DNA from: Flaviflexus ciconiae
GTDB lineage: Bacteria; Actinomycetota; Actinomycetes; Actinomycetales; Actinomycetaceae
DNA: 64,000 nucleotides
NCBI RefSeq assembly: GCF_003971195.1
Contig: NZ_CP034593.1
Coordinates: 1,550,001-1,614,000 of the forward strand
Direction of reading: 5' to 3'
This document shows, piece by piece, positions 4,316 to 24,967 of the stretch. Position numbers and translations under genes: made by a program. The stretch's first letter is position 1. Every line of letters starts with the position of its first letter. The notes beneath the pieces are model-generated. The model was given only the letters and a program-made list of their open reading frames with translations, was not told where the DNA came from and searched no databases.

Positions 4316-4837
4316 ATGGCTAGAGCGCTTCTCCGTACCGGACTCATGCTCATCCTGCCCCTCGTGGCGGCGGGCTGTTCGACCGACTCTGAGGCCCCTG
4401 CTACCGATGGCAGTGCCGAAACAACGATGTCGCCAACCGACGATGGCTTGAGCCCCGGGATCAATGACGGACCGCAACCCGGCCAGCCCGAGCCATCGGT
4501 AGAAGCCACCGAGGCCAGCCCAACAGCAGACGAGTCCGAGGACGCAGACGAGGAAGACGTTCCCGGCCTACCCAGCCACGACGACGTCACCTCCGGTCTA
4601 CGAACGATGATCGTGGCCGAACTGGGGCTTGCCGAGGATGAAGTAGAAGATCTCAGCGCTGCCGGCGTGCTCGAGGAGTACTACTCCTGCATCACCGACC
4701 AGGTCTATGACACCCTGTCCGCCAACGCCCTGCAGGCACTGGCCGACGCTGACCTCAATGCGGAACTGAGCGTTGAAGATTCCGCTATCTTCAACGAGGC
4801 CACCACCACCTGCGGCGAACTGATCACCGCGGATTAA
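4316..4837 (+). CDS. Lipoprotein, paralogue 3 with acidic Pro/Thr/Glu linker
   Basis: 173 residues; ATG 4316 preceded by AAAGGA. Signal peptide with lipobox VAAGC. After the lipid Cys comes a ~75-residue low-complexity linker rich in S, T, P, E and D, then a ~95-residue domain with the same pattern as the two preceding lipoproteins (HDDVTSGLRTM, YYSCITDQVYDTLSANALQALAD, and a Cys close to the C-terminus). It is therefore a diverged third member of the family, held further from the membrane by the linker. Function unknown. An upstream in-frame ATG at 4121 overlaps a stem-loop and has no signal-peptide logic. Confidence 0.78.
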   Translation: MARALLRTGLMLILPLVAAGCSTDSEAPATDGSAETTMSPTDDGLSPGINDGPQPGQPEPSVEATEASPTADESEDADEEDVPGLPSHDDVTSGLRTMIVAELGLAEDEVEDLSAAGVLEEYYSCITDQVYDTLSANALQALADADLNAELSVEDSAIFNEATTTCGELITAD

Positions 4838-5101
4838 TTCGTGCACGGCACCGCACATTTCATCCAACGAGACGGTTCCCAAACGAGCGACTTCCCCATA
4901 AACCAAGTCCAACAAGGTCGTTCCTGACACCCGCCGCGCTGGGTTGCGGTGGTGTCGACAAAGTGCGCTTAGAACTTCCCTACCCCTACTCCCTCCCCAC
5001 TCGCCTCTCCCTGTCCCCTAACAGCGCTCCCACACTTCCCCAGCGATTTCATGCTTGGCGCAATCACGGGCAATCATGCAACCTAGATCACAGGTATTCG
5101 A

Positions 5102-5116
5102 TAGGGTTATGCCGTG
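5102..5116 (+). promoter_or_regulatory. Candidate -10 element for a leaderless glgE transcript
   Basis: TAGGGT at 5102-5107 fits the actinobacterial TANNNT -10 and lies 6 bases before GTG 5114, the spacing expected if transcription starts at the initiator codon. No Shine-Dalgarno sequence precedes this GTG. No good -35 is visible. Confidence 0.4.
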
Positions 5117-7204
5117 ACTACTTCAAGCAATTCCCGGGATACCCGGAAGCCTGCAGGCCAGGATCGTCGTACTGTTTCTACCGATACGCCGACTGAGTCG
5201 GCACGCCCGCGGCGCGCGGCTTTCGCACCCGTCGGCCGCATTCCGATTATTGACGTATCGCCGGTCATTGAGGACGGCAGGTGGCCCGCGAAGGCCACCG
5301 TCGGCGAAGCCTTCCCCGTACGTGGAACCGTTTTCCGCGAGGGCCACGACGAGTTCAGTGCCGAAGCGGTGCTGACGCGCCCCGACGGCACCGAGGCTCA
5401 GCGCGTACGCATGGTCGACACGAAGCCGGGGCTCAACCGCTACGAAGGCTGGGTGGTCCCGGACGCGACCGGCACCTGGTCATTCCACATTGAATCCTGG
5501 TCCGATCCCTATCGCACGTGGGAGCACAACGCGACCGTCAAGATCGAGGCCGGTGTCGACGAGCGGCTCATGATCGACGAAGGAATTGCTGTCCTCACTC
5601 GAGCGGCCGAGAATGCACCGGCGGATTCTGCTGAACGCACGACGCTCGCGGCGGCTGCCGACGCTATGAAGGGCGAGGGCACGCCCGCCTCGTTGCTTAC
5701 GCACGGTCTCACAACCGCCGTCCATGATGCGCTGTCCCGGTACCCGTTGCGGGACATGATGACCTACTCTGCCGAGTACCTGGTGAACGTTGACAGGGAG
5801 CTTGCCCTGTATGGCTCCTGGTACGAGTTCTTCCCCCGCTCCGCGGGAGCATTCCAGCGCCCGGACGGCACCTGGGTACCCGGCACCCTGAAGACCGCCA
5901 CGGAGGAGCTGGATCGCATTAAGGCTATGGGCTTCACCGTCGCCTACCTGACCCCGATCCACCCGATTGGCTCAACAAACAGGAAGGGCCGGAACAACAC
6001 GCTGACGGCGGAGCCGGGCGACCCCGGTTCGCCCTACGGCATAGGTTCGGAAGACGGCGGGCACGACACGATCCACCCCGATCTCGGTACCTTCGAGGAC
6101 TTCGACCGCTTAGTTGCTCGCGCGCGCGAGCTCGATCTCGAGGTTGCTCTCGACATTGCTCTCCAGGCCTCCCCCGATCACCCCTGGGTGACAGAACATC
6201 CGGAATGGTTTACGACCAGGCTTGATGGCACGATTGCCTACGCGGAGAACCCACCGAAGAAATACCAGGACATTTATCCGCTGAACTTTGACAACGATCC
6301 CGAGGGGATCTATGTCGCAATCAGGGACATGCTGACGCTGTGGGCGGATCACGGAGTGACCCTGTTCCGCATCGACAATCCGCACACGAAGCCACTCCCG
6401 TTCTGGCAACGACTCCTTGCGGAGTTCCGCGAGACGTACCCGGATGTCATTTTCCTTGCGGAGGCATTCACGAAGCCCCCGATGCTGCAAACGCTCGGCG
6501 CTATTGGCTTCCACCAGTCGTACAACTACTTCGCGTGGCGCAACGAGAAGACCGAGATCGAAGAGTATCTCATGGAGCTCGCCTACGAGACCGATCACCT
6601 GGTCCGCCCGGCCTTCTGGCCAACCACGCACGACATTCTCACGCCCTACATGCAAAGGGGTGGCGTTCCCGCCTTCGCTATCCGCGCTATTCTCGCTGCC
6701 ACCGGCGCTCCGACGTGGGGTATCTACTCCGGGTATGAGCTCGCGGAGAACATTGCGCGCCCGGGTGCCGAGGAGCAAATCGACAACGAAAAGTACCAGT
6801 TCAAGTCGCGCGACTACGGCCTGGGTGACTCCACGGGAATCACCCCGCTGTTGACGAAGCTCAACGCCGTGCGTGCCGCACACCCGGCACTGCAGCGCCT
6901 GCGTAACGTGACGATCCATCCGACAACGTCGGACAAGATCATCTGCTTCTCGAAGAAGATGAGGGACGGCGAAGGCAAGCAGGACACTGTCATTGTTGCC
7001 CTGAACCTCGATCCGTTTATCACCCACGACGCTCTCATCGATCTTGATTTTTCGACGTTGGGCCTCGGAGATGATTATCATGGCGGTTCTATCATCGTTG
7101 ACGACGAGCTGACGGGGCAGACATTCGAGTGGGGGCAGCGGCCCTTCGTCCGCCTCGATCCCCACGGCTCGGCTGCCCACATCCTGTCAGTGAGGATTCC
7201 GTGA
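5114..7204 (+). CDS. glgE: Alpha-1,4-glucan:maltose-1-phosphate maltosyltransferase GlgE
   Basis: 696 residues, the usual GlgE length. It transfers maltosyl units from alpha-maltose-1-phosphate to the non-reducing end of alpha-1,4-glucans. The layout is an N-terminal beta-sandwich domain (about 25-140, [14 protein letters not shown]), a helical insert, then a GH13_3 barrel. The nucleophile is D421 in [10 protein letters not shown] and the acid/base is E450 in [10 protein letters not shown]; the GlgE-specific [10 protein letters not shown] follows. The start is GTG 5114, with no ribosome binding site but a -10-like TAGGGT 6 bases upstream, suggesting a leaderless mRNA. The stop overlaps the treS start (GTGA), so translation is coupled. 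Substrate is supplied by the maltokinase half of the third gene. Confidence 0.95.
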
Positions 7205-12936: not shown

Positions 12937-12967
12937 CAATCGGCGCGAGAAGATCTCACTGAAGCTC

Positions 12968-13014
12968 AAGTCTGGGTCCCACGCAATTTCCTGCGTGGGA
13001 CCCAGACTTCATTT
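12968..13014 (+). terminator. Strong terminator after the glgE-treS-glgB operon
   Basis: 18-bp perfect stem (12968-12985 with 12992-13009; core GTCTGGGTCCCACGCA), loop ATTTCC, followed by CATTT. It marks the end of the glucan operon and the left edge of the A+T-richer defence island. Confidence 0.85.
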
Positions 13015-13076
13015 CTCCGACGTCATCCACACTTTCTTGCCAAACATGGCTATCAGCCACTGCTAAAGAGACTCTG

Positions 13077-13094
13077 TAATATTCTTACTGTATG
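13077..13094 (+). promoter_or_regulatory. Candidate -10 box for leaderless restriction endonuclease gene
   Basis: TAATAT at 13077-13082 lies 9 bases before ATG 13092. No Shine-Dalgarno sequence is present, so a leaderless or nearly leaderless transcript is inferred. No convincing -35 is seen at the right spacing. Confidence 0.35.
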
Positions 13095-14009
13095 AGTGAA
13101 GATGCTAATGGAGATGAGCAACCGGACGAAGAAGTTCAAGAGGTTGCTAGCTTTATTCTTAGTCAAGATCCTGATGGAAAGCGCATGGCAAGAGTTTTCC
13201 GCGATACGTTTGATCAGCTATATGACGGTCAGCGCACTGGGAGATTTCGTATTGACCAGTTAATGAAAACCGAAAAGGCACACTTTGGTTCACTTATCGA
13301 GATAAACCTTCAACGTGAGCTCAAGTTCCTGGATGGCGACAAGCTCGATTACAAGATTGCCGATCATGAGGTCGACTCCAAGTACTCTCACACAGGGGCA
13401 TGGATGTTGCCCGGTGAAAGCTTCGACGAAATTGTTCTCGTGTCAGTTGCCGACGACAAGAACGCGATTTGGAGCGTCGGCTTAGTTCGCGTCACAAAGG
13501 AGAACAGACGGTCAAGCGCGAACCGAGACCGGAAGACTAGCCTGAACCAATTGGGGCGTAGTCGAATACTCTGGCTCTTTCGAGATCAACCGATGCAACC
13601 CAACGCGCTTCAGCTACTGTCACCCGAAGCTGTTAGAGCAATTATGGATCCCAGAAAGAGCGGCCAAGCACGGATCAACGAGCTCTTCCGCCAGGCAACA
13701 AATGTTCGTCTAAGTCGGAACATCATCGCAACTGTTGGGCAACAAAGCGACTACATGAAGCGAGTCCGCTACAATGGTGGCGCCAGGAGCGCATTGCGCC
13801 CTGAAGGTCACATCATCCTCGGGGGCGACTATCGGGCGCAGACCAACATTGCACAGGGGCTTGGAGCCACTGTCCCCGAGCCGGGCGAGTTTGTGAGCGT
13901 TCAAGTGGTCCCTGCCGATCCTCATAATGGATCATTGATTGATGGCTCGTGGTGGCGCCTTAAGAATGACGACGACAGAATCACCGTCGATGCTCCGATA
14001 ATCCGATGA
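13092..14009 (+). CDS. NaeI-family type II restriction endonuclease
   Basis: 305 residues. It strongly resembles NaeI, a type IIE enzyme that cuts GCCGGC and needs a second, effector copy of the site. The stretch FRDTFDQLYDGQRTGRF and the active site align without gaps to NaeI as I remember it: E70 (SLIEINL), D86 (LDYKIA), D95 and K97 (EVDSKY) fall at the same residue numbers. L43 is also present; in NaeI, changing this Leu to Lys gives a topoisomerase, so this protein should be a normal nuclease. The C-terminal part (INELFRQATNVRLSRNIIATVGQQSDYMKRVRYNGGARSALRPEGHIILG, cited as scattered blocks 195-255) matches the NaeI Topo/CAP DNA-binding domain. No ribosome binding site. Convergent with a C5 methyltransferase 48 bp downstream. 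Confidence 0.9.
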   Translation: MSEDANGDEQPDEEVQEVASFILSQDPDGKRMARVFRDTFDQLYDGQRTGRFRIDQLMKTEKAHFGSLIEINLQRELKFLDGDKLDYKIADHEVDSKYSHTGAWMLPGESFDEIVLVSVADDKNAIWSVGLVRVTKENRRSSANRDRKTSLNQLGRSRILWLFRDQPMQPNALQLLSPEAVRAIMDPRKSGQARINELFRQATNVRLSRNIIATVGQQSDYMKRVRYNGGARSALRPEGHIILGGDYRAQTNIAQGLGATVPEPGEFVSVQVVPADPHNGSLIDGSWWRLKNDDDRITVDAPIIR

Positions 14010-14057
14010 TGGGCTGCACACGATATATCGCATACAGCCCAACTGGAGGTTCTCGGA

Positions 14058-15056
14058 CTAGCTAACGCTACGAAGCTGTGTCCCCCTCGTTGAGCGTGAG
14101 CTTTCAGATGATGCACCAATTGCTACTGCGATCGACTCACCGATCGCAGTGGCTACCGGCGGCGGGAACGCATTTCCGATTTGGCGGTAAACCGACGTCT
14201 TCCGTCCGGCAAACCGCCACTTCTTATCAAAGCCCTGAACCCTTGCCGCCATAATGTTCGTGAGCTTGGGGATGTGGTCCATTGCTTCGTCGGGACCTGG
14301 AGCCTCATCAGCAATGCCTTTGCCATTCACGCCAAGCTTAAGCCACGCCTCTTTAGCACGCGTCGGCCCAAGATCCGCCCCGCCGTGCTTCTTAGAGCCC
14401 CCGACAAGGGTCGGTGCGATTGCATTAGCACCTCGAGCCCACTGCGTGGCACCGAGCCATCCTCGCTCTGCCATAAGCGGCTTAAGCACCTTCCCTACGG
14501 AAGGCGGTGTGCCAGCGGGACTTGGCCACTTGAAATTCTCAAGGTTACCCTTCTTGAATGCCACCAAAACAAAGCGCGGTCGGAGCTGCGGCACACCGTA
14601 TTCGCTCGAGTACAGCAACTGCCAGTCGGCCTCGTAACCGAGCTCATCCAGAGTATCGAGAATTGACTGCCGGTAATTTGCGAATCGCGCTGTCGCAAGC
14701 CCGCGAACATTTTCAAGCATTACGGCCTCTGGCCGTGCCTCATCAACAAGCCGCATCGCCTCGGGGAACAAGTCTCGTTCATCATCGGCCCCGAGCTGCT
14801 GTCCAGCGATCGAGAAGGGAGGGCACGGCACACCGCCAGCCAGGAGATCAATACCTCGATAATCAGTACCACTAACCTCTCTGACATCCGCCTCAAGGAC
14901 GTTCCAATCCGGGCGGTTCAGACGTAGCGTCGAAGCCGCATCCTTATCAATTTCTACTGCCAGCGCATGTCCAAATCCGGCATTCTCCAAGCCGGAGGAC
15001 TGGCCACCTGCGCCAGCACAAATCTCAAGAACACTCAGATCATTTCCCAAAGCCAT
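14058..15056 (-). CDS. DNA (cytosine-5-)-methyltransferase paired with NaeI-like nuclease
   Basis: 332 residues. All main C5-methyltransferase motifs are present: I (ICAGAGGQSSGLENAG), II (VEIDKDA), IV with catalytic C78 (GGVPCPPFS), VI (MLENVRG), VIII (YGVPQLRPRFVLV), and X (VYRQIGNAFPPPVATAIG). The gene appears intact. It probably methylates the recognition site of the adjacent NaeI-like enzyme (GCCGGC by homology) and so protects the host. It ends convergently with the nuclease gene. Base composition is lower in G+C than the flanking glg genes, consistent with transfer. The ribosome binding site before ATG 15056 is weak. Confidence 0.93.
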   Translation of the reverse strand: MALGNDLSVLEICAGAGGQSSGLENAGFGHALAVEIDKDAASTLRLNRPDWNVLEADVREVSGTDYRGIDLLAGGVPCPPFSIAGQQLGADDERDLFPEAMRLVDEARPEAVMLENVRGLATARFANYRQSILDTLDELGYEADWQLLYSSEYGVPQLRPRFVLVAFKKGNLENFKWPSPAGTPPSVGKVLKPLMAERGWLGATQWARGANAIAPTLVGGSKKHGGADLGPTRAKEAWLKLGVNGKGIADEAPGPDEAMDHIPKLTNIMAARVQGFDKKWRFAGRKTSVYRQIGNAFPPPVATAIGESIAVAIGASSESSRSTRGTQLRSVS

Positions 15057-15313
15057 GCTTCATACTCTCATCAGTAGCGGACCGAATTTGTCAGCCTACT
15101 ATCCCGACATCCTTAGTTGCACTCCCACTATTCTATTGACATATTATACGGGGAGTCCGTTCCAACACCGTGCCGTTGGACGCGATTGTGTACATGCCAC
15201 GGACAGGCAAATTACGCTAGATCTGGCGCGCTCCGACATAAAATGAACGCTTTACGTTTAAGCGTTGCCACTGATACGGTTCGCGGTGGCATCGCTTCAC
15301 TAATCTCAGGAAC

Positions 15314-15972
15314 CTATTCTCTACGGTGCCGCATTAGATGACAATCTGCACAAAGGAGAGTTAAGTCTTCTAACTTCGGCTAAATGAACCTAACTGCCTG
15401 TGAGGGAATTAAGTAGTGTATCTCAATATCTTCCTGACCCCGCGCTACATCCACGTCGCTAATACTAGTCGCGCAGTCCTCGAAAGCGACAGGACGTCCT
15501 GCTTGGATCTCATTAGATAGTTTCCTCGCTCGTAGCTCTGGAGCACGCTCCCTCAGAAAGGATAAACGAGCTAAGAGGTCTCCCTCGATCACACTTTCAG
15601 AATCTGCGAAGGCAAATGCACTCACAGCCGAAGAAGATTCCAGGGCCGTCCGCACCGCCGTACCTTCATCGTGCATTCGCTCTGGCAGATTTCGGAATCG
15701 TTCCGCAATGTCCCAGGTGAGTTGACCACCCTTAGTGATCCGGCCGCGGTACTTGGGATCCGCAGTACGCAAATCTTCGATCTTCCGATGCACACTATCA
15801 GCACTTCGGTACTTATCTGGTACCTCAACATTCGGGGAAGGATCCAGGCAGAATTGATTAGTGGATTCGATAAAACTTCCACACTGTAATCAGTGCGGCG
15901 AGGGGCAACCCAGTAGTTTCTGACGAGCAGATCCGCTGCAAACAGTATCTCGTCGCGGTTCCAATTCACCAT
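15314..15972 (-). pseudogene. HNH endonuclease-like gene, decayed (frameshift, nonsense codon, lost active-site His)
   Basis: Read on the minus strand from ATG 15972. Frame 1 gives NWNRDEILFAADLLVRNYW and continues to LSNPLINSAWILP; homology then moves to another frame (NVEVPDKYRSADSVHRKIEDL), which one extra C in the CCCC run near 15827-15830 would restore. That frame runs to a TAG at 15380-15382, but the same frame then continues PKLEDLTLLCADCHLMRHRRE to TAG 15314-15316, the normal end of an HNH domain. The catalytic region reads IHYLIP where this family has HH-x-x-P, and the first zinc CxxC is lost. The full product would be ~219 residues. It lies 89 bp downstream of the defence operon on the same strand. 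Confidence 0.75.
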
Positions 15973-16061
15973 CCGAGTTGCCTTTCATTATGTCGATTCT
16001 GTGCTGGGACCTAGACTGATCAATAGCCAGGCACTAGATAACGACCGTTGGGCCCATGGGG

Positions 16062-16811
16062 TCAATAATTTACAACTCGATCTGCAACGTGTTGGAAGAC
16101 TGCGTCCAAATAATTCTCATCAACGAAAGAAATATCGATTAGCCCCGACACTTGTTCGAGTTGCACAGCGAAGGCTCTCGCATATGATTTTCTTTGGTCA
16201 CCACTCAGCCCGGAATTAATGATCGCCCTCGCATACCGCTGGGCAATAGGCCGACTACTCTTAATCGTGTCCCGCTCAAGAATCTGAACATAGTCATCAG
16301 CCCTTAGTTCCCCGGATTCAACCAACTCCGCTCCCAGGAGGTTCCAACGTGCCCACAGTCGCGAAAAAACATGACGTCGATTTGCTCCAGTCAGACGAGC
16401 TTTCCATTCAGCACTCCTTGGTGGTACCCGCCAATTCGCATAGTCTGGCAAAAGAATCAACGTAAGAAAGTCCCAAACATGAGGGTTTCCAAATTCTCCC
16501 TCTGAGGATTCTCTTAGCAAATGGAAATACCTACCGACCACTAGGTCGAACTCTCGGTCTTGATCCCGTTTCGAAAGTGACTTACTTTGCCAAGCGGAAC
16601 CGTTTAGCACTGAGCCCAAGCCGGTCCGAATGATGATTAACTCGGACTCGGTGATTCGGACACTTCCTGTCGGGGGATAAACCCGCGCACCCTTCAACGT
16701 TTGTTCAAGCCGATCTCTATCAAACTCAGTGGCGGACCGTGCCTTTTGCATGTGGTATCGGCGTTCATGAGCCTGCTCAGGCATTAGCCTAGGAAACGTT
16801 CGATGATTCAC
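16062..16811 (-). CDS. Unknown protein, last gene of the Z1/GHKL defence operon
   Basis: 249 residues; its ATG overlaps the stop of the preceding gene by four bases (ATGA), so it is translationally coupled. No transmembrane segment, signal peptide or nucleotide-binding motif is seen. The sequence is mainly helical, with aromatic-rich blocks (FGNPHVWDFLTLILLPDYANWR around the middle and RRHVFSRLWARWNLLG after it). It may belong to an uncharacterised family (possibly DUF6339-like) found in this kind of cluster, but I cannot confirm that. The constant position at the end of a five-gene operon with Z1 and GHKL proteins implies an accessory role in the same defence system. Confidence 0.7.
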   Translation of the reverse strand: MNHRTFPRLMPEQAHERRYHMQKARSATEFDRDRLEQTLKGARVYPPTGSVRITESELIIIRTGLGSVLNGSAWQSKSLSKRDQDREFDLVVGRYFHLLRESSEGEFGNPHVWDFLTLILLPDYANWRVPPRSAEWKARLTGANRRHVFSRLWARWNLLGAELVESGELRADDYVQILERDTIKSSRPIAQRYARAIINSGLSGDQRKSYARAFAVQLEQVSGLIDISFVDENYLDAVFQHVADRVVNY

Positions 16812-17677
16812 CGTTTCTCCCCCAGCAAGTTCGTTGATGCATTAATGAGAGTTTCGAGTTCATCCGGCCGATGCTCAGCTAAGGACAATGTTTCAGTAAT
16901 CGGTCGACTCAGAAAATCCTTACTCGCTTGATTAGCTGCAGCTGCGACTGATTCTGGGTACTCAATGACAATGTCGTCGAGACACTGACGCCTACCAGAG
17001 TCTTTAAAAAGCCGCCGGAAAGTGTCGATGAGCACGCGTAGAATTGACGCATCGAGAGCGTTACCGACCCGGGGCACATTCTTTCCGGCGATTAGATCGC
17101 TTACCAGAAGATTGTCCGTGTTGAGCTCCAGGCGAAATGCATGAACAAATGGGTCCTCAAGACTTGTGGCCTCGACATTAATCGACCAAGGCGCTCTAGG
17201 ACGGTGGTTCTCCTCGAACGACATTGCAATTGTGGGGAAACCATCTACCCAAGATTCCAGGTTTATCGACTCATTGAGTTCGGCAAGTATTCGCCGCGAC
17301 AGCCAGCTTTCTATCCCTTCCGGTGCAACCAGCATTGCTCGGATGTTTAACTTTCGAGCAATTTGATGGCCCCCCACAGTGACTACTGCTTGAAAACTAT
17401 ACTTTTGCGCAACAACAGTAGGATATGAAACCTCTACAGAGGTTTCGGACGTACTAGGGCAGCTAACACTTAAAACAAGCTTTATCTCTGACAACTGCAT
17501 TGCTTGTATGACGGACGAAGGTACCTGAACAGATGTGAGAACACTAAGTTGCGAGTTGCAATCCCATCGCTCGGCAATATCGTCCTTTTCGACGGGTTCA
17601 TCATTAACTAGAAAGCTCGTTGGTGACCAGCTCACATCCGAATCAATTCGTGGGAAGGGGTAGAGATTAATCCTCAA
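16808..17677 (-). CDS. Unknown protein of the Z1/GHKL defence operon
   Basis: 289 residues. The start ATG 17677 lies inside the end of the upstream GHKL gene (11-bp overlap), and the stop overlaps the next start by four bases. The N-terminal ~180 residues look beta-rich with alternating hydrophobics (LSVLTSVQVPSSVIQAM, LVLSVSCPS, YSFQAVVTVGG), the C-terminal ~110 mostly helical. No catalytic motif is recognised. Base composition matches the rest of the island. Its size and fixed place next to the ATPase suggest a partner of that ATPase. Confidence 0.7.
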   Translation of the reverse strand: MRINLYPFPRIDSDVSWSPTSFLVNDEPVEKDDIAERWDCNSQLSVLTSVQVPSSVIQAMQLSEIKLVLSVSCPSTSETSVEVSYPTVVAQKYSFQAVVTVGGHQIARKLNIRAMLVAPEGIESWLSRRILAELNESINLESWVDGFPTIAMSFEENHRPRAPWSINVEATSLEDPFVHAFRLELNTDNLLVSDLIAGKNVPRVGNALDASILRVLIDTFRRLFKDSGRRQCLDDIVIEYPESVAAAANQASKDFLSRPITETLSLAEHRPDELETLINASTNLLGEKR

Positions 17678-19601
17678 GATCCACCTCTCTCAGGCTTGTG
17701 TGAACTTCAATCGCCGTAACTTGCCAAAGCTCAATTCTAATTTCACCTCTGGCACCATCTTCATACTCTGCATAGAATATGTTCTCATCCGTCGCCACCG
17801 CACCACTCCACGTAACTGCACACCCATCATTATCGAGAGGGATTCTGCCTTCGGAGGTCTTTGCATGAATGTTAAGATCTACGCCGACCCTCTTTGAACC
17901 ATTTCCTTTCACCCAAAAAGTAATTGAGTACCCCCGACCAGCATCCGTCGTGGTGCTTACCACATATTCAAGCTGAGGTCTTATACGCTCTTTCTGGCCA
18001 CCCCGCCTGTGACTACCGGTCCGCCTAACTCCATTGATAGCCTCAGGATCCGCGTCCCTGGAGGGTAGGAAGTTCCGCAAGGAAGTTGCTACATCTCGTA
18101 CCGATAGTGCGCTCGGCTGGGCCGCAGGCTTCACTTCATTAATCCATCTACGAAGTTTGCGCTTCACTTGCTCCAACGATTTTTCGACCACGTATGACGA
18201 AACCTCAGAATCAGCAGTCGACGGAGTCCAGCTATCATGAGTCGACGGTTCTGCTTGAGCAAAATGGTGGTCACATTCGGGTGTTGGTTTGAAAACTCCA
18301 GAAATGGAGATCGGCCCAAGGTCGATCCCCTCGAGTCGGTCATAATAGACCACAAGTTCCGCGTGAGACCGCATAAACGCGATAGTATTTGCAGGGAACG
18401 GGAGACTACCCTCTGCCCCCAAATCCGGGGGCGCCAAAGACATTCTTAAGTGTAAATGGCCTGAAGTCGCATCCGTCCGGGATCCAAAATAATCGGACCG
18501 CTTTGAGTTGCCCTTTATTCGCGGGCGGAGTGTTATTTCTTCAAATTTGGTTCTCACCAACGGGTTTATATTTGTGTCGGCAGTTTGCTTAATCGACAGT
18601 TCTCGTTTTCTAACCTCATTCAGGGAAAGTGCGTGTCCGCCGAACCTCTCTTGTACCAGGTTGACCACATCTACGGGACTCCCATCGTAGGCGAGATCGA
18701 ATGACATTGGGGATTCTCCCCCACTGGGCGTTTGAGTAATTTTCGGCCAGCCATGTATCGCCAACGCACTGGCGATTTGATTTATCAAGAGGCGTTCATG
18801 CGCGGTGCTACAAGCTTCGATTCGTTCAGCCGTTTCCTCTTCTTCGTCCTCAGGCTCAATCCTTACTTCCGGGGCCACTACGAGGATCGAAGTACCTGTC
18901 TCGCCTTCATGGAACCTACGCTCAAAAATCCGCTCACCCAGGGCCTTAGCTTCAGCGCCACATAAGGGAATAATTTCTTCGCTACCCGGATCACCCCACC
19001 AGTGTGCACCAGTGAAGCGTTTCGAACCGTGCTCAAAAGGATCACCCTGCATACAGGCAATCAGTCGATGCTCTAAATCACCATTGGCTAGTCTGCAGAC
19101 TGACCAATATACGACGCTATACACATGCGAAACTTCAAAAGTCGCGGTCTTTCCGAACCCGAAGGTACCCCCAGTATTCTCCCCTTCCTTAGTTGTCCCA
19201 ATGTCAAAAACGAATGAGTTAAAATTGTTTGCCTCACCTGGATCCGGCGCTTGCCCAGAACGGACTGGCCCATCAAGACCACTAGTTCCTCGGTCAAAGA
19301 TCTCCAACAATCTCAATTCATCATCATCGAGTACCGATGCCAGATTTCCTAAGGGCGCTGAAAGCCCGGTAAAAATACGATCTCTAAGGGACTCTCTTGC
19401 TTCAGTGGACGCCCGATGAATCCTGGCGCCATAAGTTGGAGCCTTCCCCGGAAGACGAGCATCCCAGGAGTTCTGTAGCGTCTCTCGTACGAGAATTTCG
19501 AGTCTGGTTAAGTCCGCTGCGGTCCGCAACAACTTACCCCGCCCACCACTTGTCACAACCGAAGGACCTCGGTCGAGTGAGAAGATTTTTAGTGCTGTCA
19601 C
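17667..19601 (-). CDS. MORC/MutL-like GHKL ATPase of predicted restriction system
   Basis: 644 residues. The N-terminal half is a GHKL (Bergerat) ATP-binding domain: N box E40-x3-N44-x2-D47 in VRETLQNSWDAR, G1 box FDRGTSGLDG, and glycine-rich lid GTFGFGKTATFEVSHV. The arrangement resembles the MORC/MutL group found in bacterial restriction-modification clusters rather than histidine kinases: there is no dimerisation helix or transmembrane segment. A middle domain (~250-420) contains NPLVRTKFEEITLRPRIKG, and the C-terminal ~150 residues are beta-rich (GRGYSITFWVKGNG). It probably uses ATP to gate or load the nuclease and helicase partners. It overlaps the genes on both sides. Confidence 0.85.
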   Translation of the reverse strand: MTALKIFSLDRGPSVVTSGGRGKLLRTAADLTRLEILVRETLQNSWDARLPGKAPTYGARIHRASTEARESLRDRIFTGLSAPLGNLASVLDDDELRLLEIFDRGTSGLDGPVRSGQAPDPGEANNFNSFVFDIGTTKEGENTGGTFGFGKTATFEVSHVYSVVYWSVCRLANGDLEHRLIACMQGDPFEHGSKRFTGAHWWGDPGSEEIIPLCGAEAKALGERIFERRFHEGETGTSILVVAPEVRIEPEDEEEETAERIEACSTAHERLLINQIASALAIHGWPKITQTPSGGESPMSFDLAYDGSPVDVVNLVQERFGGHALSLNEVRKRELSIKQTADTNINPLVRTKFEEITLRPRIKGNSKRSDYFGSRTDATSGHLHLRMSLAPPDLGAEGSLPFPANTIAFMRSHAELVVYYDRLEGIDLGPISISGVFKPTPECDHHFAQAEPSTHDSWTPSTADSEVSSYVVEKSLEQVKRKLRRWINEVKPAAQPSALSVRDVATSLRNFLPSRDADPEAINGVRRTGSHRRGGQKERIRPQLEYVVSTTTDAGRGYSITFWVKGNGSKRVGVDLNIHAKTSEGRIPLDNDGCAVTWSGAVATDENIFYAEYEDGARGEIRIELWQVTAIEVHTSLREVDLED

Positions 19602-20587
19602 TTAGACTCCGTCTGCTCTAGATCACTAAGTTTGGTGAAGTCAAAATCGGATGAAGATTCTCCGAGTGCTGATAGATTAAGCACATACTTCACATCGGAA
19701 ATTGCCATGGATACACTTTGAGAAACCGAGGATAAGTTGAGTACAGGACAATCCTCATCGATACGCCAGAACCGCCAGGAAACTAAAGTGAACTTTTCTT
19801 GGCCTTCTGGCATACCAATCACATAATGGGCATCAGCTAGTTTGTCTACTAGACGCTGACGATCTAGATTCAAATCCAGTAATCGCTCAATAACATCATC
19901 GATCCGTTCACCGCCCCCATCCTGTTCCGCCTCAGCCACTCCTAGGTACAGAGCAGCTTCTCGCGGTAGTTCGAGCTGTTTTAAGCCATTGACATTGACA
20001 GCTTGGCGATTTTGGAAACGCGAAGTCTTAATTTCTACCCGGCAGTTCGAACTAATAAAATCTTGCGGATCCTTTCCTGATCGTTGCCAACAATTAATTG
20101 CTGACACACCATTGACCCGAACAAGATTCTCAAGGAAGAGTAACTCCCCATACAGTCCAGTGAGTGCCGTCAACTTCAACGTCGATTGAGCCTTCTGTAA
20201 TAACCTTCGCCACGCAGAGACTGCGAGTGAGAGTACTTCGACTGGATTATCCATCTTGACGTTTTCGACGACCTCATCCATAAACGCAAGGAACACCTCA
20301 TCGAGCCTTGGTTCAAGGCAGGCCACTTTTGCAACCTTTAAACGAGTGGGATCGTCGTCAAACGACAGGGTCGCCGGCTCCACGAGAATAACCCGACTTG
20401 CACTAAACGCTCCTTTCAAGCTTGAATCACCGAGTTCGAAATAGGCTACCGCTCTACCTTCACGGTCAAGCCCTACCCATGTTCGATACTTGGATCCAGG
20501 ATCCCCATGGAGAAGTACCGTTGCTTCTCCGGCACTTACGTCTGTACCAGAACGCTTGGCTCTTAAGAAAGTCTCACGTGTTCTCAC
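19598..20587 (-). CDS. PD-(D/E)XK nuclease-like protein (DUF4420 type)
   Basis: 329 residues with four-base overlaps on both sides. The core carries a PD-(D/E)XK signature: LYGELLFLENLV helix, then KDPQDFISSNCRVEIKTSRFQ, where D of QDF and E-x-K of VEIKTS are the expected metal ligands and catalytic Lys. This matches the DUF4420 family predicted to be restriction endonucleases. The N-terminal ~150 residues form an all-beta/helical region preceding it. It is the best candidate for the DNA-cleaving subunit of the operon. Predicted from motifs only. Confidence 0.8.
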   Translation of the reverse strand: MRTRETFLRAKRSGTDVSAGEATVLLHGDPGSKYRTWVGLDREGRAVAYFELGDSSLKGAFSASRVILVEPATLSFDDDPTRLKVAKVACLEPRLDEVFLAFMDEVVENVKMDNPVEVLSLAVSAWRRLLQKAQSTLKLTALTGLYGELLFLENLVRVNGVSAINCWQRSGKDPQDFISSNCRVEIKTSRFQNRQAVNVNGLKQLELPREAALYLGVAEAEQDGGGERIDDVIERLLDLNLDRQRLVDKLADAHYVIGMPEGQEKFTLVSWRFWRIDEDCPVLNLSSVSQSVSMAISDVKYVLNLSALGESSSDFDFTKLSDLEQTESK

Positions 20588-23250
20588 ACCGTGTCCCCTT
20601 CATAATCCCGCTCATCATCATTCGGAATGTCAACTTCGTACTCTTCATCAACTTCGTCGACGTAGGCGGGTTTAACGGCAAAGTACACACCCTTATTCTT
20701 GACAACGTTGTCGACATCGAACGGCGCAACTAATCCCAGTCCAAACACTTGAGGAATCTGCCGCCCGTCTGAAACAGAATGTTCCTCGAGGATTTTCTTA
20801 TTCAGGGATATCTCGCGGTCCGGCAATAGCGAGTTTCCACTCAATGGATACAGAACTAACAATCCATATCCGTCGCCACCTGCCGTCGTAGCCCGCAAAT
20901 CAAACTGTTGGGCATTGCTTAATGGCGATTCCCTCTTTGGCCCCGCACGTCCAAGAATCTCAAGGTCGAGTATCAGGTCACCACCGCTCATCATAGCTCC
21001 CACTTCTAACGAGAGCCCCTCATCCTCATTCTTGATCTTTTGCACTGATCGGATCGGTTTCCTGACTTCAAAGCCTTCGAACTCGAAAGTGTCTGATCCG
21101 TTACCTGACGCAATAACCACGTTCCAAGGGGTTTCTGGTAGCTTTTCCTTGGTCCATTCCATCGCTTCTAGAACCAACTTATTGTGCTTGTCGTGAACCT
21201 TGAACTCCGCCAGGAACTTATCGATGTATGCGAACGGGACGCCCTCAAAAAGAATTGGCTGATGACGACTCACCGCGTCGCTCGCATTCTTGTACGCGAG
21301 AATTCCGGCAAGGAGTTCTTCTGCCGCAGACTGATTTCTATCCAACTTTTCCAAAGAGCTAACGTCAAGTGCAGTTGTCTGAAGTCGGAATCCTTCAAAG
21401 TCAACAGCAACCTTTTTTGCGTGTTTCTGCTTGTTCTTCGCCGTGATTTGTAGCCGACCCGGATGTTGCTTTATTCGGACACCGATCTGCCGCGGGGTCT
21501 GTCCTGAGGCTGTAAGTCGGCTAATCTCAATCCGGAGATCAGCCTCGACTTGCGCGAGAAAACGATAATCACTATCTAAGCCGTCACTAACCCAGATACG
21601 CTGTAAATCTTCATACTCTGACCGATACCCGAACCATCGTCCCATCTGCAGAAGTGTGTCGTAGGTATTCGAAGTCCGGGTGAAAAACGAAACGAACAGT
21701 CCTTCCAGTGTTAAGCCACGTGACAGTGTGCTGCCGCCAATAACAATCAGAGTCTTGGCTCTATCCCCTGTGTATGACAATCTCTCAAACTCGTCGGCAT
21801 ATCCGTTGTCGACTGCAACCGTTAGCGTACGTAGAACTGCTCCGATCTGCTCTTGTACTTTCGGCCAGGTTGGAGCAAGATCATCACCTGTGTAGAGTTC
21901 AGCAGCTTTATTTACTTCGGAAACGAAGGTGTCATAAAAGCTACTGACGTCCCCGTCCAACGCCTCCTTTTCAAGCTTCGCCAGAAATAGCTTTACAGCG
22001 TCTCTGAGGCGGAAATGGGCTTCAGTTCGATGTGTTGTATGTAGCAACATCGTCGAGTGCTGGTTCATTTGCCCTCGAAGCCGACGGATTGCAACTCCCA
22101 CAATGAACCATCGGATAGCTTTCTCAAGCGACTCAGTAACCTGGGGCGCGAAGGTCTGATTCTCCCGGTTGTTGCGGGGCATCAGGAACTCAAGCTCACC
22201 CTTCGGTATTTCTCGAATGACGTCCGGCGCGTTTGTATCCGCATTCTTCAGCCCAAACAATTCTTCGGCGCCGAAGTATGATTCCGAAGTCGGAAGCGGG
22301 ATCATAAAATCGGCAGGATATAGACCGTCCTCCTCCTCAGGGTCCATAAATACGTTAGCGAAGGGTGTTGCGGTATAACCTACATACGTCCCATTCTCGA
22401 CCAAGTCCCAGATATTGCGCATATGCTGATTGATCGGAGTTGGAGAGTCAGACTTTTCATTCGAAGAATCAGGTGTGGCTTGGTCGGACTCATCATCAAT
22501 AATCAGAATGGGGGTCTTTTCAAGAATCTTTGGACCCGCAGCTTTTAAGAACTTCGTGAGGTACTCAAGTCTCTTTGAGTTCTTCTTAACAACAGCTATC
22601 ACCCGTTTATTGTTAAAAGCACTCCCGACATTCTTAAGATCCGCCGTTCCAATGTCGCCGTCTAGGGCTGTAAGTCGATGCCAATCATGGCTGGTTTGAG
22701 TGATCCCGAGGTCACGCTCAAGACGTCCCTGCGTTTGGCGGCGCAAGTTCTTATACAGGCCTGAAAGAACAATTATGAACTTGTACCCTTCGTCAACAGC
22801 CTTGCTAATAACTGCGGCATAGTTAGCTGTTTTACCGGACTGAACATTACCGACAGCAAGCCCGCGTCGCTTATCACCAAGCAGAAAAGGCTCCGCCAGC
22901 TCGACCATGACCTGATCCGACGACTCGTCTATCGAATCGACAGCTTCTGCAAGTCCGCTGTCACTCATTCGAGCCTTCAGCTGCTCCCAGACGCCTGAGA
23001 GACGAGCAGGCGGCATATACCAATAGACTCGATTAGCGCCAGAAGTTGCAGTTGTATGCTCGTAAACAGTCCTCGCCTTACCAGCCTTAGCCAGGTATTC
23101 TTCACGAATACTCTCGATAATCGTTTTCGCTTCAGGAAAAAACAGGGCCATCCGATTTTGCACGATATCGCAAGCATCCAGGAAAGTCTTTGACTTATCG
23201 TTCCGCACTTCCTCTATCTGAGCAATTAGAAGCTCCCGATGCTCGTTCAT
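20584..23250 (-). CDS. Z1-domain superfamily II helicase-like NTPase, first gene of defence operon
   Basis: 888 residues. Helicase motifs are visible: motif I GNVQSGKTANYAAVI (~135), motif II IIDDESDQATPD, motif III VGYTATPFANV, and a C-terminal Z1-domain signature LIVIGGSTLSRGLTLEGL followed by LLQMGRWFGYR. The last ~300 residues are unique. The Z1 domain is known from predicted restriction systems where it occurs beside MORC-like ATPases and PD-(D/E)XK proteins. It is probably the motor subunit, translocating on DNA. It is the first gene of a five-gene operon (23250 to 16062) and is divergent from a C5 methyltransferase, with a 339-bp shared promoter region. Confidence 0.87.
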   Translation of the reverse strand: MNEHRELLIAQIEEVRNDKSKTFLDACDIVQNRMALFFPEAKTIIESIREEYLAKAGKARTVYEHTTATSGANRVYWYMPPARLSGVWEQLKARMSDSGLAEAVDSIDESSDQVMVELAEPFLLGDKRRGLAVGNVQSGKTANYAAVISKAVDEGYKFIIVLSGLYKNLRRQTQGRLERDLGITQTSHDWHRLTALDGDIGTADLKNVGSAFNNKRVIAVVKKNSKRLEYLTKFLKAAGPKILEKTPILIIDDESDQATPDSSNEKSDSPTPINQHMRNIWDLVENGTYVGYTATPFANVFMDPEEEDGLYPADFMIPLPTSESYFGAEELFGLKNADTNAPDVIREIPKGELEFLMPRNNRENQTFAPQVTESLEKAIRWFIVGVAIRRLRGQMNQHSTMLLHTTHRTEAHFRLRDAVKLFLAKLEKEALDGDVSSFYDTFVSEVNKAAELYTGDDLAPTWPKVQEQIGAVLRTLTVAVDNGYADEFERLSYTGDRAKTLIVIGGSTLSRGLTLEGLFVSFFTRTSNTYDTLLQMGRWFGYRSEYEDLQRIWVSDGLDSDYRFLAQVEADLRIEISRLTASGQTPRQIGVRIKQHPGRLQITAKNKQKHAKKVAVDFEGFRLQTTALDVSSLEKLDRNQSAAEELLAGILAYKNASDAVSRHQPILFEGVPFAYIDKFLAEFKVHDKHNKLVLEAMEWTKEKLPETPWNVVIASGNGSDTFEFEGFEVRKPIRSVQKIKNEDEGLSLEVGAMMSGGDLILDLEILGRAGPKRESPLSNAQQFDLRATTAGGDGYGLLVLYPLSGNSLLPDREISLNKKILEEHSVSDGRQIPQVFGLGLVAPFDVDNVVKNKGVYFAVKPAYVDEVDEEYEVDIPNDDERDYEGDTV

Positions 23251-23589
23251 CTACATTCGCCCTTCTACGATCCTCAAACGATGATATCCAACCGAACGAT
23301 TAAACATGGACAGAATCCGATTTAAGTACCAACTTATTCGAATAATGGAGAACACGGCTCTGCCGATCCCGAATACATCACCGCCACAAGAATCGTAAAG
23401 TGCGAATTAATCAACAGAATCCCTGCCCAGATAAACAGTTCGCTCACTAAAGCTGCGGCACACAGCATCTGATGAGAGAATGAAAGCCGACGCTTTATCA
23501 GTAGCGTCGAGTACACTTGCATTTTTTGAGATCAGGGTTCTCAATCCCTGATTCTTCGTAGTCGAGTCCTTTGGAGGTACGAGCCCAAC
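23251..23589. promoter_or_regulatory. Divergent regulatory region between defence operon and methyltransferase
   Basis: 339 bp, A+T-rich, with no credible gene. It must hold the promoters of the minus-strand Z1 operon and of the plus-strand methyltransferase. The dyad ATCAGGG-N8-CCCTGAT at 23531-23552 lies 37 bp before the methyltransferase ATG and directly after a T6 run. GGAGG at ~23572-23576 is a possible, slightly distant ribosome binding site. Confidence 0.5.
23531..23552. repeat. Perfect inverted repeat upstream of methyltransferase 2
   Basis: 7-bp arms ATCAGGG/CCCTGAT with loop TTCTCAAT. The T-run lies on the 5' side for plus-strand transcripts, so it is not a standard terminator; an operator or leader hairpin is more likely. 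Confidence 0.45.
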
Positions 23590-24758
23590 ATGGCTGGCAT
23601 TGGCACCAACGAATGGCAACCCACACTCGACATACCTCGATCCCAGCCAAAAAGTAATGCACTTCTAGCACCCATTCCACCCGAACGCACGGAAGAAGAC
23701 AGGGCCCGCGCATCATTTCGTTTAGGCGAACTGTTCTCTGGCCCTGGCGGCATCGGACTCGGCGCTACTCAAGCCGCCATCGATAACCCAAGCTATGAGA
23801 TCGTCCATCAGTGGGCTTCAGACTACGATTCAGACACCTGTAAAACCTACGCTGAGAACATCTGCGGCAGTACCGCCTCCCCCACGGTCATAAACCAGGA
23901 TGTCAGAACACTGGACTTCTCCGTCTTGAAAAACATTGGTTCCATCGACGGATTAGCATTTGGCTTCCCTTGTAACGACTTCTCCATCGTTGGGCGAAGA
24001 GAAGGACTAGAGGGAGACTTTGGACCGCTCTACACGTATGGCATTCGTGCACTCCGAGAGTTTAGACCTTCATTTTTCGTTGCAGAGAATGTCGGAGGCC
24101 TTGCTTCAAACAAAGATGGCTCCGCATTTCGCCAAATCCTTGAGGACATGCGGGATTCGGGATACGAGATCACTCCTCACCTTTACAAGTTTGAGAACTA
24201 CGGCGTTCCGCAAAGTCGGCACAGGATTATTGTGGTTGGCATTAGATCGGATCTTGGTCTGACATATCAAGTACCATCCACGGTTCAGTTTTCAAGTGAA
24301 GACGTTTCAGTTTCAACAGCGCTCTCCGACATTCCGACATGGGCCTCGAATCAAGAAAAGACTCGCCAATCAAAGAACGTGGTCGAGCGACTCAAACTAA
24401 TCGAGCCCGGGAAGAACGCTTTCAATTCCGACTTGCCTGAGCATCTTAAGATCAAGACTACGACAACAATCTCTCAGATTTATCGTCGATTGCACCCTGA
24501 CCTCCCCTCATACACAATCACCGGTTCCGGGGCGGCGGTACGCATGTTTACCATTGGGATGAGCCACGCGCCCTCACAAATCGGGAGCGCGCACGACTCC
24601 AGACTTTCCCTGACTCATATGTCTTTCACGGCAATAAAGAATCTGTTCGCAAGCAGATTGGGATGGCAGTCCCCGTTCGAGGTGCACAGATAATCTTCTC
24701 CGCAATCCTGAAGACTTTCGCCGGCGAAGATTACCCCTACGTGGAGCCTTCATTTTGA
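23590..24758 (+). CDS. DNA (cytosine-5-)-methyltransferase of the Z1/GHKL system, apparent frameshift near 24530
   Basis: The uninterrupted frame from ATG 23590 stops at 24693 (367 residues). It has motif I (LFSGPGGIGLG), IV with catalytic C128 (FGFPCNDFSIVGRR), VI (FFVAENVGG) and VIII (YGVPQSRHRIIVVG), and reaches YTITGSG. There the normal sequence (GGGTH...W...PR.LTNRERARLQTFPD) is found in another frame from 24531: TNRERARLQTFPDSYVF, then motif X as RKQIGMAVPVRGAQII, ending at TGA 24756-24758. One added G in GGGG (24529-24532) would give a 389-residue complete enzyme. As read, motifs IX-X are lost and it would be inactive. Either a sequencing error, a real mutation, or -1 frameshifting. 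Confidence 0.85.
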
Positions 24759-24910
24759 ACTAAGCGCAGCCTAGCAATATCCGCGGAAACAATTGCAGTC
24801 ACACCGTTTACTCCTGGTGCAACAATTCCTCACAGTTACATTGCTAAAACTCTCATCCAGCGTCCCTTGACAATCGCGCAGGTCTAGGACGTATTTCTAA
24901 GCAAGAAACT

Positions 24911-24940
24911 TTGCAATCCGTTACAATTTACCGGTAGCTA
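24911..24940 (+). promoter_or_regulatory. Candidate lacI-family promoter and operator
   Basis: TTGCAA (24911-24916), 18-bp spacer, TAGCTA (24935-24940). The palindrome TACCGGTA at 24929-24936, with the central CG typical of LacI-family operators, lies across the -10, suggesting autoregulation. Confidence 0.35.
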
Positions 24941-24967
24941 ACCTATTGTCGTACAAGGAAAGTACTG

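Follow-up and report, generated by a model that had tools for sequence, protein, structure and literature searches.

A five-gene operon on the minus strand of a 64,000-nucleotide stretch of the Flaviflexus ciconiae genome (the window; positions 1,550,001 to 1,614,000 of contig NZ_CP034593.1) is real and conserved, and belongs to an already predicted defence family. Judging from its sequence, it looks like an ATP-driven DNA-restriction machine. An earlier note on this DNA, made from the sequence alone, had described five minus-strand genes beside a cytosine-C5 methyltransferase, and that observation is confirmed. The genes, with the open reading frames (ORFs) of the adjoining methyltransferase, MT2, are as follows.

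16062..16811, minus strand: E, 249 amino acids (aa), GTG start as listed; all-helical, a remote relative of DUF6339 (PF19866)
16808..17677, minus strand: D, 289 aa, TTG start as listed; N-terminal part a beta-sandwich, C-terminal part helical
17667..19601, minus strand: GHKL ATPase of the paraMORC2 type; motifs RETLQNSWDA, DxGTxGL, GGTxGFGK and ExxxH
19598..20587, minus strand: DUF4420 PD-(D/E)XK protein, a distant MzaD relative
20584..23250, minus strand: fifth operon gene
23590..24693, plus strand: ORF of the C5 methyltransferase MT2, covering PF00145 positions 1-247 before the frame is lost
24555..24761, plus strand: C-terminal part of MT2 in another frame, PF00145 positions 252-323

In the GHKL protein the ATP-binding motifs are intact, residues E40, N44, D103, G145, G148, G150 and K151 being invariant among 27 sequences. 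The ExxxH residues E451 and H455 are kept in all 27 and would fall within the C-terminal portion of the S5 domain. The protein thus appears to carry both marks of paraMORC2, the ATP-binding motifs and ExxxH, the latter being included in the definition given in the accessible text of PMC2292703. It also matches the PADLOC candidate PDC-M33A (2.6e-13). In two Prochlorococcus loci, second paraMORC-like GHKL genes adjoin the system (L018, 11093-13057; L022, 13150-15114). The putative nuclease residues E148, D176 and E185xK187 of the DUF4420 protein are invariant among 22 sequences, and three related loci lack a copy of its gene. In operons of this kind a clamp ATPase resembling MutL and topoisomerases is combined with a nuclease and a helicase-like motor. 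According to the accessible parts of PMC2292703, such operons figured in a 2008 discussion of how the eukaryotic MORC chromatin ATPases arose.

The earlier note had left two proteins, E and D, unassigned and proposed structure prediction for both. Folds could be modelled for each, with mean predicted local distance difference test (pLDDT) values of 92.8 for E and 88.3 for D. The model of E is all-helical (predicted template modelling score, pTM, 0.88) and found no match in the PDB by Foldseek. The window protein scores 15.3 bits against PF19866 (E-value 0.018), below the Pfam gathering cut-off of 23.2 bits. However, 17 of the 28 aligned members of the E family match PF19866 at E-values up to 0.01 (best 7e-9), so that E is a remote DUF6339 relative by homology. 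One PADLOC model of PDC-M33C is matched by 7/28 members and another by 2/28, and PDC-M33C is also matched by the E part of L063; the window E itself has no such match. The model of D (pTM 0.55) has an N-terminal beta-sandwich, possibly Ig-like according to weak structure matches, and a helical end. D has no Pfam match, only a chance-level match in NCBIfam (E-value 0.15), and none of the 27 members of its family matches PADLOC.

The earlier note held that its reading would fail if the operon did not occur together with a C5 methyltransferase in other genomes. The two do occur together: a linked C5 methyltransferase is present in 23 of 29 related loci, and the association is seen in both locus samples. 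None was seen in L010, L019, L028 and L030, loci from actinobacteria or Prochlorococcus for which some flanking sequence is available, or in the plasmid stretches L032 and L033. Vsr is also associated with the related loci. In the Garicola locus L007, a protein that matches FokI-cleavage and AlwI-type restriction endonucleases (4803-6632) lies between a Vsr-like gene and the methyltransferase.

Relatives carry a methyltransferase predicted to be catalytically dead, sometimes in fusion with E. In L134-L145, separate C5 methyltransferases with a PC to PR change, presumed dead, are found close to intact methyltransferases. The most distant of these loci, L145, retains the catalytic cysteine and may show the ancestral methyltransferase pair. 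In L067 a protein that we take to be DUF262-like, matching PDC-M55C, HEC-05, Orf5 and SspE in PADLOC, lies upstream of the order GHKL-(330 aa)-E-methyltransferase; this locus could be a case of effector exchange. The dead methyltransferase hints at how such machines locate their DNA target, and its fusion to E offers a direct, testable handle on targeting. This reader tied to E is the new lead of the present analysis. If true, a DNA methyltransferase would here have become purely a reader of sequence within a restriction machine, something for which a listing-level search of the open-licence literature found no description. A dead methyltransferase could also read a methylated site, as would suit a type IV-like system that attacks methylated DNA and in which the methyltransferase has another role; in the accessible text of PMC2292703, DNA methylation is suggested as a signal for MORC-type proteins. 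This is very improbable, as the linked intact methyltransferase, commonly associated with the system, would mark the host itself for attack.

In this strain METHYLTRANSFERASE is broken: the ORF at 23590-24693 tracks its relatives as far as the TGSG stretch and then diverges. The break is either a mutation or an assembly error. The out-of-frame remainder is conserved, and because it is still 75-79% identical to L002/L003, the break must be recent if it is not an error of assembly. L002, from Brevibacterium yomogidense, is an intact locus. A search of the strain's own genome with PF00145 found only the two MT2 pieces and MT1, the partner of a NaeI endonuclease in the same island (see below). Self-marking by 5-methylcytosine, which the earlier note had proposed, is therefore doubtful in this strain. 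What is supported of that interpretation is a restriction-type operon with two ATPases and a nuclease, linked to a C5 methyltransferase through a gene neighbourhood that is conserved.

With MT2 split over two frames, the locus might be what is left of an acquired restriction island, decaying or silent, and give no protection here. In keeping with this, the GHKL gene was found in only 1/151 genomes of the family, its own, no Vsr match was found anywhere in this genome, and two overlapping ORFs in different frames downstream of E (15380-15972) resemble a broken gene. However, all five operon genes have the lengths of their relatives and intact motifs in the locus comparison, and the state of the MT2 remainder speaks for a recent break or an assembly error. 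Loss of function is thus a real possibility, though somewhat on the doubtful side. The ORFs at 15380-15972 sit about where L002-L004 and L006 have a Vsr-like gene. They were rejected as Vsr, since Vsr similarity in the window amounts only to chance-level pieces, and profile searches gave them no credible family match.

The conserved operon was probably acquired horizontally. It lies in an island that also holds a NaeI pair:

12937..24967, no strand assigned: AT-rich island with the system and the NaeI pair, between GlgB and LacI
13092-14009: NaeI endonuclease, open frame, PF09126 at 340 bits
14058-15056: MT1, C5 methyltransferase, open frame, PF00145 at 234 bits

The GC content of the island is about 0.49-0.56, against about 0.61. 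GlgB and LacI are 90 bp apart in the same-genus genome G021, and their matches are 3.4-3.7 kb apart in G075 and G051. The gap holds a 1063-aa ORF in G051, helicase-like by eye, and in G075 two overlapping ORFs resembling a broken copy. Since content and spacing differ among these genomes and the window, this site varies across the genus. An 18-nucleotide perfect inverted repeat with a 6-nucleotide loop (12968-13009), terminator-like or an insertion border, lies just past GlgB at the island edge.

NaeI and MT1, both found, appear to form a complete, convergent type II restriction-modification pair (13092-15056), which the earlier note does not mention. Against the close loci L002-L004, L006 and L007, MT1 matches only MT2 homologues; identity is about 26-29% where the match is long and 42% in one 45-residue piece of L006. 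It has no match in L005. Because it adjoins NaeI, is convergent with it and resembles the MT2 homologues only distantly, MT1 is taken to be the NaeI partner. With 48 bp to NaeI and convergent ends, it was rejected as part of the operon.

Among known systems, CglI and NgoAVII have three genes without GHKL, D or E, the nuclease being a PLD/B3 protein, in the accessible text of PMC4267653; no PLD domain was found among the ten island proteins scanned, and a CglI-like system was rejected. VcSduA blocks phage; it is a GHKL-nuclease protein, of the sort formerly annotated as paraMORC3, and the accessible account mentions no methyltransferase (PMC12137116). The third operon type of Iyer, Abhiman and Aravind (2008) comprises GHKL with S5, a superfamily 2 helicase with DThhQXuRhFG, an E-D-ExK nuclease, cytosine methylases and Vsr. 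As far as the accessible text of PMC2292703 goes, these components and the paraMORC2 ExxxH are what that type and the present system, its related loci included, have in common; the operons of that type are predictions only, and E and D are not recognisable from that text. The window system resembles MZA in having distant relatives of MzaC (NF041933, 340.1 bits) and MzaD (NF041934, 61.7 bits). These scores are far below the equivalog cut-offs of 1500 and 420 bits. MzaB (NF041932) has no match in the genome, the GHKL protein included, which is of another type than in MZA, and the system was therefore rejected as MZA. AIPR and a sigma factor had no match among the ten proteins. A limited search of the open-licence literature found no paper that uses the name PDC-M33. 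A 'Type I' putative defence system was reportedly described by Miller, Stern and Burstein in 2022. It is very probably the same combination, presented as a predicted defence system in the accessible text of PMC9523054; the earlier note knew of no mechanism for this exact combination. In section 11 of that paper three extra genes are unnamed, and the words GHKL and fusion are absent from the main text. Here, unlike in that text, the three additional genes, present in the window and conserved across related loci, are identified as paraMORC2, the D family and the DUF6339-related E, and MT2 is broken.
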